Below, piece after piece: positions 5,330 to 32,841 of a stretch of DNA of 41,626 nt. The DNA lies in assembly GCF_000531125.1 (NCBI RefSeq), contig NZ_CBTK010000246.1:1-41626 (forward strand), in the 5' to 3' direction. The translations under genes and the position numbers were made by a program. Within the stretch, counting starts at the first letter, position 1. Every line of letters begins with the position of its first letter. The notes below the pieces were generated by a model that worked only from the letters and a program-made list of their open reading frames with translations, searched no databases and had not been told where the DNA came from. This stretch comes from Candidatus Contendobacter odensis Run_B_J11 (GTDB lineage: Bacteria; Pseudomonadota; Gammaproteobacteria; Competibacterales; Competibacteraceae).

Positions 5330-5730
5330 AAATATCCTCCTGTAAATTTTCCTGTGATCGGAACTGTGGGGCAGGCAGGTAAAATGAACAGCACCTATTG
5401 AGATCAATGGGTTGGATTCAGTCAACGCCCTCGCCTGACGCTACCAACCCTCGCCATCACAGGAAAATTTACAGGACCAAAACTCTACCACAATGCCTCG
5501 CCGTGTAGCTGTTCAAGCATAGAGCATCCCACCGACTTTCCCCCATACCCTCCACAACCGCCAAGATGGCGGGTCAAACCCTCCTGCTGAATCGGGACAG
5601 ATGAGCTAAACCGTTGCCCATCCGCGCATGGGCGATGGATCCGTTACCGTCCTGCAGTCGGTCTGGGTGTCGCTCATCAACGATTCAACTATTCTGTAGG
5701 CTGAAAAAGACACCCTAGCTCATCAAAACC
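5268..5730. other. Intergenic gap between ygiQ and hemC
   Basis: This gap separates divergent ygiQ and hemC. The ygiQ side holds the leader ORF and the 139-bp inverted-repeat element. The rest has only small inverted repeats (CCGCC 5558-5562 / GGCGG 5568-5572; GCCCAT 5616-5621 / ATGGGC 5628-5633). The hemC promoter must lie near its 3' end, but no convincing boxes were found. I saw no further gene. Confidence 0.5.
5338..5476. repeat. 139-bp element with perfect 21-bp terminal inverted repeats
   Basis: Bases 5338-5358 and 5456-5476 are exact reverse complements over 21 bp; the core reads TGTAAATTTTCCTGTGA. Inside is a further inverted pair, GGGTTGG 5409-5415 and CCAACCC 5444-5450. No protein is encoded. 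Size and structure fit a non-autonomous mobile element (MITE) or a structured regulatory site. The core matches 14 of 17 positions of the 17-mer repeated near 31 kb. No obvious target-site duplication is seen. Confidence 0.65.
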
Positions 5731-6675: not shown

Positions 6676-7479
6676 ATGAATCCTTCCCTGAACGGCCTGA
6701 CCGTGCTGGTAACGCGACCCGAACATCAGGCCGGCCCGCTCTGCCAATTGATCGCCCAGCACGACGGCTATGCCATTCGCTGTCCAGCGCTGGTTATTGG
6801 CGAACCGCAGAACTGGACCCCGGCGCTGGCGGTTCTGGACCGGCTGGATCGCTACGATCTGGCGATTTTCACCAGCGCCAACGCAGTGGATCGGGCCATG
6901 CCGCTGATTCAACAACGCGGCGGCATTCCGCCCCGGCTGGAAATCACCGCTATCGGTAAAGCGACCGCCCAGGCGCTGGCCCGCTATGGCATTAACCCCA
7001 GTGTGCAGCCCGCCCAAGGCTTTACCAGCGAAACACTGCTGGCGCTGCTACGATTTCAACCAGAGGTCGTCAACAGTCAAGCCATGGTGATCGTTCGTGG
7101 CGAAGGCGGTCGGGGACTGCTGGCTGAAACCTTGTCCGCTCGCGGTGCCCATGTTGATCATGCCGAGGTTTATCGCCGTAAGCAGCCGACAACCGATCTC
7201 TCAGCCTTGCTGGAACGCTGGCAGCGCGGCCAAATCGGCGCGGTAGTGGTTGCCAGCGGTGAGAGCCTGTTGAATCTGTTTGATATGCTAGGCGCAGCCG
7301 GGCAAGATTATCTGCGTGAAACCCCCCTGATTGTGGTCAGTGGCCGCATCCAGCATCTCGCCGCCGCCCAGGGTTGCCGCCGTATTCTGATCGCCCAGGA
7401 AGCCAGTGATGACGCCATCCTCACCGCACTGCTCCACCTGACTACTCCATTCTCTTCATCCGTTCGGTACACAACATGA
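6676..7479 (+). CDS. hemD: Uroporphyrinogen-III synthase
   Basis: HemD closes hydroxymethylbilane to uroporphyrinogen III, inverting ring D. The protein (267 aa) has the two-lobed pattern of the family. The first lobe has LNGLTVLVTRPEHQAGPLC and DLAIFTSANAVDRAM; the second has ITAIGKATAQALARYGI, VNSQAMVIVRGEGGRGLLAETL and GAVVVASGESLLNLF. Sequence conservation in HemD is low everywhere, so position between hemC and hemX is strong support. Its TGA stop overlaps the hemX ATG (ATGA at 7476-7479), so the two are probably translationally coupled. Confidence 0.95.
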   Translation: MNPSLNGLTVLVTRPEHQAGPLCQLIAQHDGYAIRCPALVIGEPQNWTPALAVLDRLDRYDLAIFTSANAVDRAMPLIQQRGGIPPRLEITAIGKATAQALARYGINPSVQPAQGFTSETLLALLRFQPEVVNSQAMVIVRGEGGRGLLAETLSARGAHVDHAEVYRRKQPTTDLSALLERWQRGQIGAVVVASGESLLNLFDMLGAAGQDYLRETPLIVVSGRIQHLAAAQGCRRILIAQEASDDAILTALLHLTTPFSSSVRYTT

Positions 7480-18698: not shown

Positions 18699-18808
18699 AC
18701 TTTCGCTAAACCCTCAAATTCGTCATACCCGCGAAAGCGGGTATCCAATCTTTTCAGCAGGTTGCTGGATTCCCGCTGACGCGGGAATGACGGCAAGCGA
18801 AAGTCCTG
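18699..18808 (+). repeat. Palindromic MITE-like repeat, copy A
   Basis: This copy runs ACTTTCGCTAAACCC ... AAGCGAAAGTCCTG, about 110 bp, with nested inverted repeats (ACCCGCGAAAGCGGGT and TTCCCGCTGACGCGGGAA). It is flanked by a 15-bp direct repeat GTTTAGTAACTTTCG at 18691-18705 and 18809-18823, whose end overlaps the repeat terminus. Related copies are at 22345, 24796, 29401 and 29748. Confidence 0.85.
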
Positions 18809-22301: not shown

Positions 22302-22344
22302 GGGGGTCTCCTGATCGGGAAAGACATTCTCGATCTATTATTGT

Positions 22345-22458
22345 CAGGACTTTCGCTTTCCGTCATTCCCGCGTAGGCGGGAATCCAGTAAGCCGCTGAA
22401 AAGTCTGGATACCCGCTTTCGCGGGTATGACGAATTTACGGGTTTAGCGAACGTCCTG
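22345..22458 (-). repeat. Palindromic MITE-like repeat, copy B (inverted)
   Basis: A 114-bp copy with both ends, CAGGACTTTCGC at 22345 and GCGAACGTCCTG at 22447-22458. It lies in reverse orientation compared with the other copies: GGGTTTAGCG is at its right end. Internal hairpins are TTCCCGCGTAGGCGGGAA and ACCCGCTTTCGCGGGT. Confidence 0.88.
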
Positions 22459-22524
22459 ATTGTAAAGCTATCCTCTCGATACGATAGCCTAATACCATTT
22501 CTTAATAGATATTGAGTTTTTGGT

Positions 22525-25092: not shown

Positions 25093-25317
25093 ATGAAAGC
25101 TAAGTGGTTAATTTTGTGCGCAGGTTTCCTGCTGTGTTTAAGTGTAATAATTCCGGCCCAAGCCCAATACATGGATCGTAATAGCTATTATCGCCACAAC
25201 TACCGGCATCATTACCATCGCCATGCCTATTACCGGCATCATTACCATCGCCACCACGGGTACTGCTATTACCACCACTGCCACCGTCACTATTACCGCC
25301 ACTACTATCGCTACTAA
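25093..25317 (+). CDS. Small secreted His/Tyr/Arg-rich protein
   Basis: The 74-residue product has a clear signal peptide (MKAKWLILCAGFLLCLSVI to about residue 24, ending PAQA). The mature part of 50 residues is built almost only from Tyr (16), His (15) and Arg (9), in YRHxYHRH-type blocks, plus two Cys. The dense His pattern could bind metals such as zinc, copper or nickel; that is inference. A strong ribosome-binding site (GAGGAGAAT) stands before the ATG. The DNA has a 30-bp period (25201-25230 and 25231-25260 share the first 23 bases), so it grew by duplication. It ends on the same CTAA as the convergent restriction enzyme. I know no named family for it. Confidence 0.75.
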   Translation: MKAKWLILCAGFLLCLSVIIPAQAQYMDRNSYYRHNYRHHYHRHAYYRHHYHRHHGYCYYHHCHRHYYRHYYRY

Positions 25318-28235
25318 TCCACATTATGGCTTGTAGCCAAACGGCTATCAGCAACACTCTGCGAGGTTGCCCGCGCTTGATTCAAAGCCAGTAACCGCCG
25401 CAAGACTTCATTGTCGCTCAAATCCACCGGCCAGCCATAAGCCACTGCGACCGCGTTATCAAGATCGCGGTGAGCGTTCGCCAGCCACGCCGGACGCTGG
25501 TTGTACAGATTGGTCAGGGTACGCTTCTTCAGTTCAGCGGCATATTCCGGTTTGGGAATCAGCCGGTCGGGATAACCGGGGACGACTTCGGGGACGCGAT
25601 CCACCCACTGCGGCGGATTCAGCCAGTGTTCGCGCAGTTCATTGAGTTTTTGGGCGGCGGCGGCAATCGTTTGAGCGCGGGAATCATCGGCGTAGGCGCT
25701 GGCCGGGATGTTGGGCTGCAAACTATCGGGAAACGGGAAGGTTTCAAAGCAGGTGGTGGGCGTGTAGCGGGGATCGTTGCCTTTGCCAAGCCATGTGCAA
25801 GTACGCAATGCCCACAGTTCATGGAAGCGGGAATGCAGAATGCCGAAGGTGGTGTCGTCGGAACGGGCGATGACCACGACCAGATTTTCAGGAAGCTGAA
25901 TTTTGGGTAGCCAGACAAAGAAACGGTATTTTGAAACCATCGAAGTAGCAATGAAGCGGTCAAGTGGTGCAACCGTGCGTCGTAATCCGGGTCGGGTTTC
26001 TCCATAGCGCCACCAGTATCTTCGGTGCCCATCCCGCCGAACGGTTTTCCGTATGGGCTTCACATGCTTTACGACATACCCAAACGGCGTTTCATACAAC
26101 GCGGCTGGTGCTTCTGGCATATCCACACCGAAGTCAATGATCCACATATCGGAATGGCGGCGGGTAATGTCCATTCCGTTTGCCCAAGGGCGCAACACGT
26201 CGCTATTGGGTCGCCCGTTAGGGTTCGGTAACTTTAACCACTGTCGCGCCAAGTGGCCGGGGATGGCGAAGGGACCATTTTTTTGGGTGCCGATGAAGGA
26301 GACGCCCGCGTTTTCCAGCAACAGCTTGGCTTGCGTTAAATCCAAGCTGCCATTATTGCCTTCCTTCCGTCCCTTCAAATCCGTGTGAATCGCTGTCATT
26401 GATTGCCCATCCAGCATCACCGGCTGTCCATGATCCTGCTTGCCAAAGCACACCAACGACATCCGCACCGCCGCGCCTTCGTTAATCCATTCCTCATCGC
26501 TCCAGGCATTGAAGATCGCCAGCTTTTCACCCCCACCCCCACCCTCCCCCGTCAAGGGGGAGGGAGTGTTTAGAATCCGCTCCAGCACCTTGCGATTCGC
26601 GCCGCCGCGTATGGAATTGGTCGCCACCAGTCCCGCTCGCTGGACGTGTCCCGCTTCAAGCTGCGCCCGCGCTTTCTCGAACCAGTAGCAGACCAGATCA
26701 GCGCCGCCCGGAACCCGCCCGGCGTAGATTTTGCGCAGGGTCGCTGTGTACTCGTCACCCAAAGCAATAAGCTGTTTCTTGTCGCCCAGAAACGGCGGAT
26801 TGCCGACGATGACCGTCGTCGTCGGCCAGTCGGCTTCCGTGCCGTCTTCGTTCAGCAAGGCATCCCGGCACAGAATCTGATCCAGCGGTTTCAAAATCGG
26901 CTGGTCGTTCAGGCTGTAGCCGTGGCCCAGCATCCATTGAATCTCGCCAATCCAGACCGTCAGCCGGGCCAGTTCGGCGGCGTAATCGTTGATCTCGATG
27001 CCCCAGACCGCATCGGGGCCGACCGCTGGAAACCCGCGTTGCAAGCCCAGCGCCTCTGCTTCCAGCATGACTTGATGTTCGATGTCCTTGAGGGTGCGCA
27101 GGGCGACGTAGAGGAAATTGCCGGAGCCGCAGGCGGGGTCCAGGACGCGGAAGGCGTGGAGTCGTTCCAGAAAGCCATGCAACTGATCGGCGGCCTGCTG
27201 GCGGGCTTTGGCGCGGGTCTTGGTCAGTCGGGCGGCGATCTCCGCCTTCACCGTGGCCCATTCGGCCAGCAACGGTTCGCGGATCACCGGTTCGATCAAG
27301 CGGCTAATGGAACCGGCGTCGGTGTAATGCGCGCCCAACTGGCTACGCTTGTTCGGGTCCAGACCGCGTTCAAACAGGGTGCCGAAGATCGCCGGTTCAA
27401 TCTCCGACCAATCCAGAGCTGCCGCTGAATGCAGCGTGTCGAGGTCGGCGCGGTCCAGCGGCAGACAGGCGGCATCGTCGAACAGTCCGCCATTGAACCA
27501 GGCGATCCGTTGCAGGCCGAACCGTCCGCCCTGATGCATGGCGCGGAACAGGTCGCCGGCCAGGCTGGGGAATTCGGACGGAACCGGGCGGGCGGTCGCC
27601 AGCAGATCGCTAAACAGCCGGTGCGGCAACAGCCCGATGTCCTCGGCGAACAGGCAAAACAGCAGCCGGGTCATAAAGTGCGCCACCGCTTGCGGGTCGT
27701 GGCCGTGTTGCCGCAGGCGCTGCGCCAAACTGCCCAGGATCGTCGCGGCGTCTTCCGTGACCTTCTGCCGGGTCACGGCGGGCTTCAGCCGTTCAGGATC
27801 GGTAAACGCCCACTCCAACAGTTGCAGCCGCTGCCGGTCCGCCAGATCATCCAGCGTCAATCGGTGGACCTGATGGACGGTGTTGGTAAAGTGGGTGTGA
27901 ATTTCAATCGTTTCCATATCGGAGACGATCAGCAGCGGCGGGTTATCCAGCGCCAGCGCATACTGCTGCAACTGGCGCAACGCTGCGCCCAAGTCCTTAT
28001 GCTTGCCTTTGTACTCCCAGGCAAAGCAACCGCGTCTCCACACATCGGCCCAGCCATCGCCGCCGCCGGTTTTCTTCGCCCCCTTCTCGAAGGTGAACCA
28101 TTCACCGCGCGGATCGGCGACCGCCGGCGGTTCCACCTTCAGCAGGGCGCACAGATCGAGGAAGTGTGATTGCGAACCGCTGCGTTCTTTCAGCGTAACC
28201 TTGCGCCAGGTGGCGATGAATTGTTCAGGGGTCAT
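25314..28235 (-). CDS. MmeI-like single-chain restriction-modification enzyme (type IIL)
   Basis: One 973-residue chain combines nuclease and methyltransferase. The N-terminal nuclease motif D64-x9-E74-Y-K76 (ADVWRRGCFAWEYKG) has the spacing known from MmeI. A helical spacer follows to about residue 355, with LGAHYTDAGSI near 300. The methyltransferase has motif I in VLDPACGSGNFLY (about 364-376) and motif IV N479-P-P-F, typical for N6-adenine methylation. The C-terminal third (about 640-880) should hold the target recognition domain. An insertion near 556-570 (NTPSPLTGEGGGGGE) is coded by a GC-rich hairpin repeat. Such enzymes methylate one strand and cut about 20 bases away. No separate subunit or defence partner lies beside it. 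The reading frame is intact. Confidence 0.9.
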   Translation of the reverse strand: MTPEQFIATWRKVTLKERSGSQSHFLDLCALLKVEPPAVADPRGEWFTFEKGAKKTGGGDGWADVWRRGCFAWEYKGKHKDLGAALRQLQQYALALDNPPLLIVSDMETIEIHTHFTNTVHQVHRLTLDDLADRQRLQLLEWAFTDPERLKPAVTRQKVTEDAATILGSLAQRLRQHGHDPQAVAHFMTRLLFCLFAEDIGLLPHRLFSDLLATARPVPSEFPSLAGDLFRAMHQGGRFGLQRIAWFNGGLFDDAACLPLDRADLDTLHSAAALDWSEIEPAIFGTLFERGLDPNKRSQLGAHYTDAGSISRLIEPVIREPLLAEWATVKAEIAARLTKTRAKARQQAADQLHGFLERLHAFRVLDPACGSGNFLYVALRTLKDIEHQVMLEAEALGLQRGFPAVGPDAVWGIEINDYAAELARLTVWIGEIQWMLGHGYSLNDQPILKPLDQILCRDALLNEDGTEADWPTTTVIVGNPPFLGDKKQLIALGDEYTATLRKIYAGRVPGGADLVCYWFEKARAQLEAGHVQRAGLVATNSIRGGANRKVLERILNTPSPLTGEGGGGGEKLAIFNAWSDEEWINEGAAVRMSLVCFGKQDHGQPVMLDGQSMTAIHTDLKGRKEGNNGSLDLTQAKLLLENAGVSFIGTQKNGPFAIPGHLARQWLKLPNPNGRPNSDVLRPWANGMDITRRHSDMWIIDFGVDMPEAPAALYETPFGYVVKHVKPIRKTVRRDGHRRYWWRYGETRPGLRRTVAPLDRFIATSMVSKYRFFVWLPKIQLPENLVVVIARSDDTTFGILHSRFHELWALRTCTWLGKGNDPRYTPTTCFETFPFPDSLQPNIPASAYADDSRAQTIAAAAQKLNELREHWLNPPQWVDRVPEVVPGYPDRLIPKPEYAAELKKRTLTNLYNQRPAWLANAHRDLDNAVAVAYGWPVDLSDNEVLRRLLALNQARATSQSVADSRLATSHNVD
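26529..26570. repeat. GC-rich hairpin repeat inserted inside the restriction gene
   Basis: CCCTCCCCC (26542-26550) and GGGGGAGGG (26556-26564) form a 9-bp stem with a GTCAA loop, next to a C-rich run. The pattern is like dispersed non-coding repeats of many environmental proteobacteria. Here it lies in frame in the restriction gene and is translated as PSPLTGEGGGGG. The outer limits are estimated. Confidence 0.75.
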
Positions 28236-29350: not shown

Positions 29351-29400
29351 GGAAAGATGACAAAAGGACACAAGCGATAAGGCATTGCACCTTATACCTT

Positions 29401-29528
29401 CAGGACTTGCGCCTAACTCGTGAATTCGTCTTACCCGCGAAAGCGGGTATCCAGTAAGCCACTGAAAAAACTGGATTCCCGCGTTCCCCGCGTTCGCGAG
29501 GAGGGAATGACGGAAAGCGAAAGTCCTG
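29401..29528 (+). repeat. Palindromic MITE-like repeat, copy D
   Basis: A 128-bp copy with both ends, CAGGACTTGCGC at the left and GCGAAAGTCCTG at the right. It lies between the KAS III-like gene and the broken acyltransferase gene. An extra GCGTTCCCCGCGTTCGCGAGG segment makes it longer than the others. Confidence 0.85.
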
Positions 29529-29556
29529 ACCTTGCATCTTTTTTGGACGTACCGTC

Positions 29557-29874
29557 ATGAGCGAACCCCACTCTCCGAATCTGAATCCCGCTGTGTTGCC
29601 CCGCCGGCTCGATTCCGCTGAGGCATTTTTCTGGTTTCTGGACCACGTTTCCCCGATGAACTTTGCGGTGATCGCCGAAGGCAATGGTGATCTCGATGAT
29701 GACGCGCTGCGGGCGGCGCTGCTTCGCGCCCAACAGGAACATCCCTGCAGGACTTTCGCTAAACCCGCAAATTCGTCATACCCGCGAAAGCGGGAATCCA
29801 GTTTTTTCAGCGGCTTACTCGATGCCCGTGAAAGCGGGTATCTCGCCTTTCATGAGGCCGTGCGATGCGGCTGA
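29557..29874 (+). pseudogene. WS/DGAT or condensation-type acyltransferase, truncated by a repeat
   Basis: The first 60 or so residues (PRRLDSAEAFFWFLDHV, MNFAVIAEGNGDLDDDALRAALL) look like the start of wax-ester synthase/DGAT or PapA-like acyltransferases, which are normally 400 or more residues and carry an HHxxxDG active site further on. At 29748 the frame enters a MITE-like repeat and the rest (CRTFAKPANSSYPRKRES and on) is translated repeat. No continuation of the acyltransferase is seen beyond the repeat, so the remainder was deleted. The product, if made, is a 105-residue chimera without the active site. Its position after the KAS III-like gene suggests the two once worked together on an acyl product. 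Confidence 0.7.
29748..29850 (+). repeat. Palindromic MITE-like repeat, copy E (right end lost)
   Basis: The left end CAGGACTTTCGCTAAACCCG is intact, and the first hairpin ATACCCGCGAAAGCGGG is present. The right half is changed (GCCCGTGAAAGCGGGTATC) and the usual GCGAAAGTCCTG end is missing. The copy sits within the acyltransferase reading frame. Confidence 0.82.
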
Positions 29875-29960: not shown

Positions 29961-30791
29961 CTACATGCAACGGCGACGGGACAGGCCAAGCGCCACTAAG
30001 CCAAGGCCCATCAACGCTAACCCTGCTGGTTCGGGTATCCCCATCACGCTATTCCATGAGTCCGCAATTCTGAGCTGATCCACCAGTACTCTATCGCCTG
30101 CATCAAAATTGGCAGTGCGGAACCCAACATAGCTGATCGACTTAAACCCCGGATTTCCTGTTGTGCTTGTTGATGATGCATCCGGCGCAGAAGCTTGTCC
30201 GACTGATGGATCTAGCCAAACGTCGAATTTCGTATAGCTGTTGTCAAGGCCAGGGACCGTCCGGGACAGGCGACCCACGATATGGTAGGTGGTGCTATTA
30301 GTGAGATTACTGCTAGGTACAAAACTACCCCCCGTTCCGTTAGCCCGCACGAAGACGTCATTCGTTCCATTCCCATCAGCCTTAATTCCAATGTTGGGCC
30401 GATCCGTCGTATGGGCACCTGCTGTAACATTATCTAGCCACAGACCAAGAAAATCATTGCTCGTTAAATTCCCAGCGGCGATTTGCACAAAGAACCCAAC
30501 GTAAAGGTTATCGCCTTTGAAAGTCTCGCCGAGCTTGCGATAAGCAGCATTGTCGCTGTTTGCTGTGAATTGTGCCGCACGGTTGCCGCTGAGGTCGGGG
30601 TCTACGACGGTAGCACCACCCGATCCGGTAGTCTTCCATACGCTGCTCCCCCAGCCAGTACCACCGTTTTGATTATTTAGCGCTCCGGTGTAGTTGAAAT
30701 CGTCGCTTGCGATCAACGTAGCCGAAGCCAGTGGTGAGAGCGCGAATAGCGCACCCGCAAGCAGGGTACGCAGGGTTTGTGATTTCATCAT
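29961..30791 (-). CDS. PEP-CTERM sorting domain protein
   Basis: The 276-residue protein has a signal peptide (MMKSQTLRTLLAGALFALSP, cut near ASA) and ends with a PEP-CTERM signal: IPEPAGLALMGLGLVALGLSRRRCM is split as the PEP motif, a hydrophobic helix and a basic tail. Such proteins are cut and sorted by an exosortase (EpsH/XrtA type) and go with exopolysaccharide production. The mature part is rich in Asn, Gly, Thr and Ser, beta-type, with few Cys, and begins LIASDDFNYTGALNNQNGGTGW, similar to lectin-like or LamG-like folds. The exosortase is not in this window. A GGAG site lies ahead of the first ATG. A sigma-54-type promoter lies about 65 bases upstream, and a strong terminator follows, so the gene is a single transcript. 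Confidence 0.93.
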   Translation of the reverse strand: MMKSQTLRTLLAGALFALSPLASATLIASDDFNYTGALNNQNGGTGWGSSVWKTTGSGGATVVDPDLSGNRAAQFTANSDNAAYRKLGETFKGDNLYVGFFVQIAAGNLTSNDFLGLWLDNVTAGAHTTDRPNIGIKADGNGTNDVFVRANGTGGSFVPSSNLTNSTTYHIVGRLSRTVPGLDNSYTKFDVWLDPSVGQASAPDASSTSTTGNPGFKSISYVGFRTANFDAGDRVLVDQLRIADSWNSVMGIPEPAGLALMGLGLVALGLSRRRCM

Positions 30792-30854
30792 TATCTCGGT
30801 TCTCCATGAGGATCAATCGTTAGAATCTCAAAAATTTCGGATGATTAAAAGAAA

Positions 30855-30868
30855 GCAATTTTCATGCC
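30855..30868 (-). promoter_or_regulatory. Sigma-54 (-24/-12) promoter of the PEP-CTERM gene
   Basis: On the minus strand GGCATG-AAAA-TTGC (followed by T) matches the sigma-54 consensus GGCACG-N4-TTGC at all core positions except one, with the exact GG-to-GC spacing. It would start transcription near 30843, about 50 bases before the ATG. Confidence 0.65.
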
Positions 30869-30957
30869 TTATTGTTAATATTTAATTTATCTGATTGATT
30901 TATAAAATAATTTATTAAGTTAATTATTGAGGCTTAAGCCGTTTGCCCTCAAAGCGT

Positions 30958-30974
30958 TGTAAAATTTCCTGACA
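30958..30974 (+). promoter_or_regulatory. 17-mer site 1 (TGT-N11-ACA)
   Basis: TGTAAAATTTCCTGACA; centre about 123 bases upstream of the predicted PEP-CTERM transcription start, the usual range for a sigma-54 activator site. Same orientation as site 3, opposite to site 2. Confidence 0.55.
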
Positions 30975-31098
30975 TCACAAGACAGGCAAAAGCAACTTTA
31001 TCGAAGTAGTATAAAAAGTTGAGCTGATCAAAAAAATTCAACACACTGAATTTTAATGTAAAATTCGATTTCTCTGTTTATTAAAGCCACAAGCAAGT

Positions 31099-31115
31099 TG
31101 TCAGGAAATTTTACA
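31099..31115 (-). promoter_or_regulatory. 17-mer site 2 (inverted)
   Basis: TGTCAGGAAATTTTACA, the perfect reverse complement of sites 1 and 3; centre about 264 bases upstream of the predicted start. Sites 1 and 2 could also be the ends of a 158-bp mobile element. Confidence 0.55.
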
Positions 31116-31199
31116 CTCTTGAAAGTACCAAAGCGTTGATTATCCCCTATGCTGCTCTATATTAATGCAGCTTATTGTTATTTCAAATAAAAATTGGAC

Positions 31200-31216
31200 T
31201 GTAAAATTTCCTGACA
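31200..31216 (+). promoter_or_regulatory. 17-mer site 3
   Basis: TGTAAAATTTCCTGACA, identical to site 1 with different flanking bases; about 365 bases from the predicted PEP-CTERM start and 222 before the sthA ATG. Confidence 0.55.
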
Positions 31217-31437: not shown

Positions 31438-32841
31438 ATGAACGACCAAAAATACGATGTGATCGTGATCGGCACCGGCCCTGGAGGAGAAGGGGCCGCG
31501 ATGAAAGCCGCCAAAGACGGAAAATCGGTCGCGGTGATCGAGAAATATCACCTGGTCGGCGGCGGCTGCACCCACTGGGGCACCATTCCATCCAAGGCGC
31601 TGCGGCACTCGATCAACCGGGTGCTGGAATTCAACACCAGCCCGATCTTTCGCAACGCCCTCGGCCACGCGCTGAAACTGTCCTATCCCGAACTGCTGCG
31701 ATCCGCCGAATCGGTTATCGCCCGCCAGACCGCCATGCGCCGGGATTTCTACGAGCGCAACCGGATCACGCTGCATCACGGTCAAGCCCGCTTTCTCGAT
31801 GCGAACACCCTCGAAGTGCATTCCCGTCAGCAGACCGAACCGACGTTGCTGACCGCCGACGCCTTCGTCATCGCCTCCGGCTCGCATCCATTCCGGCCCC
31901 AGGACATTGACTTCAACCACCCCTGCATCTTTGACAGCGACACCATTCTCAGTCTGTCCACCACGCCCCGATCCATCCTGATTTACGGCGCGGGCGTCAT
32001 CGGCTGCGAATACGCCAGCATCTTCCGCAACATGGGCTGCAAAGTGGACCTGGTGGACACCCGCTCGCAACTGCTTTCCTTCCTCGACGACGAGATCGCC
32101 CACGCCCTCAGCTATCACCTGCGCGATCAAGGCGTCATGATCCGCCACAACGAGGAATACCAGCAGGTGGAAGGGTTGCCGGACGGCGCGGTGATGGATT
32201 TCAAGTCCGGCAAGAAAATCAAGGCGGATGCGCTGCTTTGGGCCAATGGCCGCACCGGCAACACCGCGAACATGGGGTTGGAGGCACTGGGCATCACCCC
32301 CGACCGTCGCGGTCAGATCAAGGTGGACAGCAACTACCGCACCGCGCTACCCCACATCTACGCAGTGGGCGATGTCATCGGTTATCCCAGCCTGGCCAGC
32401 GCCGCTTACGACCAGGGCCGCTTCGCCGCTACCCATCTGATTCACGGCAGTTGCGATCATCATCTGGTGGATTACATCCCGACCGGCATCTACACTTCAC
32501 CGGAGATCAGTTCGGTGGGTCGCAGCGAACGCGAACTGACTGAAGCGCGGGTGCCGTATGAAGTCGGCCACGCCTATTTCAAGAGTTTGGCGCGCGCCCA
32601 GATTACCGGTCGCACCGTCGGCATCCTCAAACTGCTGTTTCACCGCGATACGCTGGAAATTCTTGGCATCCACTGCTTCGGCGACCAAGCCGCCGAGATC
32701 GTTCACATCGGCCAGGCGATCATGGCCCAGCAGGGCGAAGCCAACACCATCCAGTATTTCGTCAACACCACATTCAATTATCCGACCATGGCTGAGGCTT
32801 ACCGGGTAGCAGCGTTGAACGGTTTGAATCGTCTGGCCTAA
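31438..32841 (+). CDS. sthA: Soluble NAD(P) transhydrogenase
   Basis: SthA moves hydride between NADPH and NAD+ with FAD, without the proton gradient. The 467-residue protein aligns with E. coli SthA along its whole length: [14 protein letters not shown] for FAD binding, [16 protein letters not shown], then [15 protein letters not shown] for the second nucleotide, [21 protein letters not shown], and the end [17 protein letters not shown]. As usual for SthA, CTHWG replaces the redox disulfide of lipoamide dehydrogenases. ATG 31438 fits the family; an in-frame extension to 31165 carries no similarity. pilU starts only 13 bases after it. Confidence 0.96.

Follow-up and report, generated by a model that had tools for sequence, protein, structure and literature searches.

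The region upstream of a PEP-CTERM protein gene in the window (the whole stretch of DNA that was analysed, 41,626 nucleotides) is, with a probability of about 0.9, a sigma-54 promoter that depends on an enhancer, belongs to the PrsK/PrsR (PEP-CTERM box) regulon and drives one gene only, at 29961-30791. The features of this region are as follows.

29961..30791, minus strand: PEP-CTERM protein gene, 276 aa, C-terminus ...PEPAGLALMGLGLVALGLSRRRCM, TIGR02595 and PF07589 above cut-off
30854..30869, minus strand: -24/-12 (sigma-54) element AGGCATGAAAATTGCT, predicted transcription start ~30843
30888..30900, minus strand: IHF-like site AATCAATCAGATA, differing from WATCAANNNNTTR at one position, its centre 25 nt upstream of the base that precedes GG
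30958..30974, minus strand: proximal PrsR-type box (PEP-CTERM box, motif 1) TGTCAGGAAATTTTACA, its TTTTACA end facing the promoter
31099..31115, plus strand: second box, inverted relative to the gene
31200..31216, minus strand: third box, in the orientation of the proximal one, lying towards sthA within the intergenic region
31438..32841, plus strand: Si-specific NAD(P)(+) transhydrogenase gene (sthA), the divergent neighbour, NF003585 720.6 bits (cut-off 465)

Putative promoter region in the window

The three 17-mers from which the original prediction started proved to be exact copies: TGTAAAATTTCCTGACA occurs at 30958-30974 (+), 31099-31115 (-) and 31200-31216 (+), and the nearest copy, read on the strand of the PEP-CTERM gene, is TGTCAGGAAATTTTACA. 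Shuffles of the window gave a mean of 0.06 matches to the 17-mer, even at three mismatches. The flanks of the copies had been described as unrelated, and blastn (E 1e-5) of 30855-31216 against the genome's 15 other regions with such sites detected no DNA similarity, so that this description holds. The 17-mer resembles NtrC/NifA sites only in its TGT-N11-ACA form.

A near-perfect -24/-12 element some 65 nt before the gene had also been claimed. The element is real, with 63 nt from the -12 GC to the ATG (30791), but it is good rather than near-perfect, because A replaces T just before GG. When the whole window was scanned at up to one mismatch for the sigma-54 consensus TGGCAYGN4TTGCW, AGGCATGAAAATTGCT was the sole site. 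The spacer from the proximal box to the base before GG is 88 nt. By arithmetic, the centre of the nearest box is ~123 nt from the predicted start (~30843), in agreement with the distance first given.

Assignment of the downstream gene to the PEP-CTERM proteins was likewise borne out, as both profiles passed their cut-offs: TIGR02595 with 22.1 bits (cut-off 16), a match recovered by the genome-wide search too, and PF07589 with 21.3 bits (cut-off 20.7). The protein has an N-terminal signal-like sequence by eye. The divergent neighbour of the gene, sthA, is probably not part of the PrsR/box system. An MmeI-like restriction-modification protein (PF20473 and others) is also encoded in the window, at 25314-28235 (-).

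In the proposed mechanism, the kinase PrsK would phosphorylate the NtrC-type activator PrsR, which would bind the 17-bp boxes; relative to the start, the proximal one lies at about -123 and the others near -264 and -365. DNA bending, in which IHF may take part, would carry the activator to the RpoN polymerase at -24/-12. ATP hydrolysis would then open the promoter, and the matrix protein would be made alongside exopolysaccharide.

Box sites across the genome

Searching the genome (4.6 Mb in 319 contigs, the window being C246) for the 17-mer at up to two mismatches yielded 40 sites, and 0 with the reversed control; the sites outside the window lay in the 15 regions that were fetched. By our own count, 24 of the 40 preceded PEP-CTERM or PEP-CTERM-like genes by no more than ~550 nt. 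Among these genes, the C79 and C303 tails scored below the TIGR02595 cut-off and C295 had no match; the C96 gene looks like a truncated copy of the C79 gene, C79 and C96 being duplicates. Together with the single PrsR of this genome, these counts make the reading of the 17-mer as a candidate PrsR-type site for matrix-protein genes, which had been proposed at the outset, the best supported one as judged from sequence.

A further 15 of the 40 sites were not upstream of PEP-CTERM genes, and C263:5770 was ambiguous. Such sites were found in a DUF3782 array (C263), before a DUF3782 gene (C257), close to Rpn-like genes (C45, C263:609), flanking a HigA-like gene on either side (C56) and inside a reading frame (C96). 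The sites on C276, C295 and C269 follow terminator-like sequence, as seen by eye. Eighteen PEP-CTERM matches in the genome were above cut-off, 7 of them with an upstream box at up to two mismatches. The other 11 had no box at this threshold; in two of these (C56, C101) a degenerate box was seen, and in the remaining 9 of the 18 no box was present in the readable upstream sequence (only 12 nt for C87; two share a C89 reading frame).

Box and sigma-54 element were expected to occur jointly ahead of PEP-CTERM genes. Box, GG-N10-GC and ATG were indeed found in this order and at the expected distance at 5 of 11 genes examined (C246, C14, C263, C79 and C96), with 47-63 nt from GC to ATG and spacers (box end to base before GG) of 88, 62, 75, 65 and 65 nt, respectively. 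The 6 others did not have box plus GG-N10-GC at the usual distance: in C302b, C303 and C77 GG-N10-GC was present and the nearby box only degenerate, C151 and C302a had GG-T9-GC, which is one base short, and C295 had no GG-N10-GC.

It is possible, at somewhat less than even odds, that the proximal box alone matters, and that the second and third are passengers or serve the sthA side (e.g., as a repressor or storage site). Distal boxes vary in orientation and spacing between genes, and a second box within 400 bp upstream was detected in only 6 of the 118 public promoters listed (strict pattern; see below). On the other hand, 5 of the 11 genes had a box 320-332 nt ahead of the ATG (the sole box seen at C295; three mismatches at C302a), and tandem same-orientation boxes 74-77 bp apart, or about seven helical turns, recur in C302 (G000), G013, G034, G035, G036 and G037, which suggests that extra boxes are kept. 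In addition, the window scan found no sigma-54 element ahead of sthA. Under the regulon reading, the second and third boxes may be further activator sites.

Several boxes were found near genes of other kinds. On C263 (L034, 5756-9384), an array of DUF3782/PD-(D/E)XK-like genes contains four nuclease-like genes that share a MATTLDEV start, each with a box that ends ~62 nt before the ATG, and a fifth box is at 7060. DUF3782 homologues were detected in 16 of 40 genomes (37 matches), and in the 30 loci fetched, boxes at up to three mismatches were limited to the C263 array, G013:C69 and L088; C257 also has a box. At L088, one 2-mismatch box lies some 370 nt after the DUF3782 gene, and at G013:C69 the boxes lie between the DUF3782 gene and a PEP-CTERM gene. 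DUF3782 genes were rejected as a second regulon member, since homologues elsewhere have no box near the gene, bar G013:C69. Because boxes occur near DUF3782 homologues only when shared with a PEP-CTERM gene, those at C263 and C257 are read as passengers, in the array as ones carried along with duplicated DNA from upstream of PEP-CTERM genes. We also considered the box as a DNA-uptake sequence or an attachment site and set this aside, because its copies are few and its presence follows PrsR.

Repeats of other kinds were also observed. An inverted-repeat element of ~146 bp, possibly MITE-like, with ends ATCACAGGAAAATTTACAGGA, is located at window 5336-5480 and has a 90% identical copy on C96 (L044, 2822-2966); its ends are similar in sequence to the PrsR box. 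On C56 and C101, a related sequence, TCACGGGAAAATTTACA, directly adjoins box-like sequence ahead of PEP-CTERM genes, and on C276 it is found close to a box. A dispersed repeat of up to ~110 bp, with copies ~78-96% identical in and between genes, occurs at window 18699-18808, 22343-22460 and 29400-29838, and also on C45, C263 and C79. On C56 (L032), 44-bp direct repeats at 883-926 and 1299-1342, each containing a box, flank the HigA-like gene, as if this cassette had been duplicated or had entered there.

Co-occurrence of the box and PrsR

The companion pair PrsK/PrsR, which the original prediction had brought in as background, is encoded in this genome above cut-off: PrsR (700.4 bits; cut-off 502.6), PrsK (789.5; 300) and EpsB_2 (560.4; 393.35) are adjacent genes on C124. 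RpoN and one exosortase are also encoded. We assessed the distribution of the box, as TGTCAGRAAATTTTACA at up to one mismatch, in 40 genomes of the order, for which the reversed control gave 0 of 40. PrsR was present in 12 of the 40 genomes, in one as a fragment below cut-off (G035). The box occurred in 12 genomes as well, 10 of the 12 with PrsR and 2 of the 28 without (Fisher P = 4.5e-6), and two or more box sites were found in 8 of 12 and 1 of 28, respectively (P = 5e-5). Exceptions were G023 and G039, with PrsR and no box as searched, and two 75% complete genomes, G007 (one site) and G036 (five sites), with the box and no PrsR match. None of six congeners without a PrsR match had a box. The combined pattern of box and GG-N9-TGC was found in 7 of the 40 genomes (5 of the 12 with PrsR and 2 of the 28 without).

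This distribution bears on the alternative that the promoter is of the sigma-54 type but its box is bound by an NtrC-family activator other than PrsR. Twelve further proteins of this genome match the PrsR profile at E < 1e-70, and DVU0110 and DVUA0057 of Desulfovibrio are predicted, in the available text of PMC4641369, to share one motif. Against this, one protein alone exceeds the PrsR family cut-off, and the box follows the PrsR gene over the 40 genomes and is absent in the six congeners that have none. We consider a different activator very unlikely and PrsR the candidate regulator.

From relatives, 24 regions were fetched, and 21 of these had a box at up to two mismatches. A PEP-CTERM-ended ORF was found in 11 of the 21 with a stricter tail pattern and, downstream on the same strand, in 16 with a looser one; the other 5 had no PEP-CTERM ORF by the looser pattern, some of them ending with the contig. 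By eye, a plausible -24/-12 element came after the box in 9 of the 21. A subclass of sigma-54-like elements with an all-T middle (TGG-T10-GCA or T9) was seen at PEP-CTERM loci L041, L040, L033, L076 (G037) and L080 (G034), and in three of these loci the element comes after box TGTCAGGATTTTTTACA.

That a sigma-70 promoter drives the gene, the -24/-12 match being coincidental, appears highly improbable. Sigma-70-like matches do occur, one between 30952 and 30923 on the strand of the gene and a second one farther upstream, but the three matches are no clear excess over the 1.4 (sd 1.2) found in shuffles, and a sigma-54-like element recurs after the box at other PEP-CTERM genes.

Spacing and IHF-like sites in the promoter family

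A pattern of box, 50-80 nt and TGGCAY-N5-TTGC matched at least 118 stretches of public genomes, with 80 titles among the matches listed. All but 4 of the 80 listed titles refer to alpha-, beta- or gammaproteobacterial taxa or 'Proteobacteria', and the four others comprise three deltaproteobacterial titles and one Nitrospira MAG. The matches are putative promoters. A PEP-CTERM-ended ORF started within 400 nt in 79 of the 118 stretches listed, compared to 9-19 per 118 random positions in the same loci; the tail patterns are crude, as two versions gave 79 and 73 of the 118 listed and several misses end SEP...RRR or leave the contig.

Spacers were unevenly distributed: 117 of the 118 listed fall in 50-54, 60-65 or 72-76 (binomial P ~1e-32, with the three windows drawn after seeing the data; Rayleigh P ~1e-32 at 10.5 bp; kinship of the rows ignored in both). 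We then allowed 41-101 nt in 50 genomes from the 80 listed loci and obtained 184 matches; all 150 listed, with class limits again set after seeing the data, fall in 41-43, 50-55, 60-65, 73-75, 82-87 or 93-97, and the reversed control gave 0. The peaks within 50-80 are partly selected, because these genomes were chosen for holding a promoter with a spacer of 50-80. The 16 listed matches outside 50-80 are free of this selection and were also phased (P 1.7e-4 to 4.3e-4 at periods of 10.5-11.0; ~2e-4 at 10.7 bp; kinship of the rows again ignored). The best-fitting period among the listed matches was 11.1-11.3, slightly over the usual 10.5, and the six class centres step by ~10.6 (arithmetic). These data suggest that the distance from box to sigma-54 element is quantised in steps of about one helical turn, in six classes.

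In 398 genomes sampled from the phylum there were nine matches, with spacers of 52, 61, 62, 62, 62, 62, 64, 65 and 85, one of the spacer-62 matches being C14 of this genome. A scan of the 118 public loci listed for additional, unselected pairs yielded a single new one (spacer 63), versus two wrong-order pairs as control. Steps are looser in this genome (62, 65, 65, 75 and 88) and its relatives (43, 53, 53, 56, 64, 64, 67, 74 and 87), because 3 of these 14 promoters fall outside the classes (56, 67 and 88); the list leaves out four GG-N10-GC matches that are unlike -24/-12 by eye (57, 66, 72 and 86). The spacer of the window, 88, is 1 bp past the 82-87 class and ~3-4 bp off the mean phase.

The spacers were also enriched in the IHF consensus WATCAANNNNTTR. 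It occurred exactly in 21 of the 118 listed spacers, compared to a shuffle mean of 0.7, and at up to one mismatch in 68, compared to 15.1. Among the sites at up to one mismatch in the 118 listed spacers, 40 share one orientation and have their centre 25-26 nt upstream of the base that precedes GG. Considering IHF-like sites at 20-40 nt in the listed matches, 30 of 33 were positioned at 25-26 for spacers of 60-65, 6 of 12 for 72-76 and 4 of 7 for 50-54, and site position correlated with spacer at 0.42 (n=52), implying that the bend is mainly, though not strictly, tied to the promoter and that the box shifts by turns. Exact sites at 23-25 were present in this genome at C14, C303, C77 and C302b (C303 and C77 being duplicates). 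We consider it probable that PrsR promoters across Proteobacteria are locked in their geometry, with the box in one of six one-turn positions on one helix face and an IHF bend ~26 nt upstream of -24/-12.

The IHF-like site of the window is weak when taken alone, as ~13% of shuffled spacers have a site at up to one mismatch (15.1/118), and the long, A+T-rich spacer further weakens a single match; its orientation is opposite to that of the usual site at this place. The window fits the spacing and IHF rule only roughly, because of its off-class spacer and an IHF-like site that is reversed and one mismatch away from the consensus, but it fits the known PrsR/sigma-54 family well.

It is barely credible that the 17-mers derive, as ends or fragments, from a small mobile element (MITE/REP-like) lying upstream by chance. 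In favour of this, 30958 and 31099 form an inverted pair 141 bp apart, the separate inverted-repeat element at 5336-5480, with its copy on C96, has similar ends, and some boxes travel with duplicated DNA (the C263 array and a C45 pair). Against it, the window region has no blastn similarity to the 15 other site regions, copy orientation and distance differ from gene to gene, the box keeps its stepped relation to the sigma-54 element, often before PEP-CTERM genes, in many proteobacteria, and no repeated ~150-bp element has the window copies as its paired ends, by which this candidate is largely refuted.

Known systems and implications

The PrsR-box reading of the window is already published in kind. 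In the available text of Haft et al. 2006 (PMC1569441), a motif 1 of 17 nt that ends in TTTACA and is sometimes repeated is followed after a spacer of 62.8 +/- 10.6 (32-92) by a sigma-54 motif 2, -24(GG)/-12(GC), at a mean of 71 nt before the start codon. The motif was reported at 99 of 167 proteobacterial PEP-CTERM genes, and PrsK, PrsR and PrsT were named, PrsR as the predicted activator. Going by this text description, the box of the window likewise ends TTTACA and is repeated, its GG-N10-GC comes after a spacer at the upper end of 32-92, its start codon is 63 nt away (published mean 71) with a PEP-CTERM gene downstream, and its genome has PrsK and PrsR. The window differs in having three exact boxes, one of them inverted, and a spacer of 88 versus the mean of 62.8. 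'PEP-CTERM-box' also forms part of the name of TIGR02915.

Two other systems are similar, again as described in the available parts of the papers. In Desulfovibrio, DAP-chip with DVUA0057 showed enrichment of the five PEP-CTERM genes predicted as its targets (Rajeev et al. 2011, PMC3333781). This D. vulgaris regulon resembles the window in that a sigma-54 response regulator binds upstream of PEP-CTERM genes, and differs in its distant lineage and in a predicted motif common to DVU0110 (PMC4641369). In Aquincola tertiaricarbonis RN12, pepA is RpoN1-dependent, with a mapped start and a -24/-12 promoter (PMC9850573). Here the likeness is a PEP-CTERM gene with a predicted upstream enhancer and PrsK/PrsR genes at the epsB2 locus; the differences are that it is another bacterium and that a prsK-prsR plasmid did not restore mutant flocs. 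The window joins a known promoter family, as these three papers (Haft 2006, Rajeev et al. 2011 and PMC9850573) describe that family.

NtrC/NifA upstream sites with IHF-assisted looping are similar in having an activator site, a bend and a sigma-54 promoter, whereas the box family has a stepped spacer of 41-97 nt instead of the usual 100-140 bp (PMC7962754, available part). The same paper, on Geobacter IHF genes, includes the exosortase-substrate gene GSU1943 in its RNA-seq table. The words IHF, integration host factor and phasing are absent from the available text of Haft 2006 (PMC1569441), in which helical steps are unmentioned, and helical steps or IHF at PEP-CTERM promoters are unreported in the open-access literature searched (subscription papers could hold them). 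Judging by the papers searched, the spacing steps and the enriched IHF-like site are new.

PEP-CTERM proteins and exosortases are tied to floc, granule and biofilm matrices, and little is known about how they are turned on. The window provides a clear candidate member of the regulon, together with a genome-wide list of boxes in a PrsR-bearing lineage. The steps and the IHF-like site would explain the spread of spacers in Haft's set (62.8 +/- 10.6, about one helical turn) would sharpen the pattern used in searching for targets, and would open the geometry of activator and sigma-54 polymerase to direct testing. If true, such short-range locking would mean that PrsR contacts the sigma-54 polymerase via a stiff bent arm and not a free loop.
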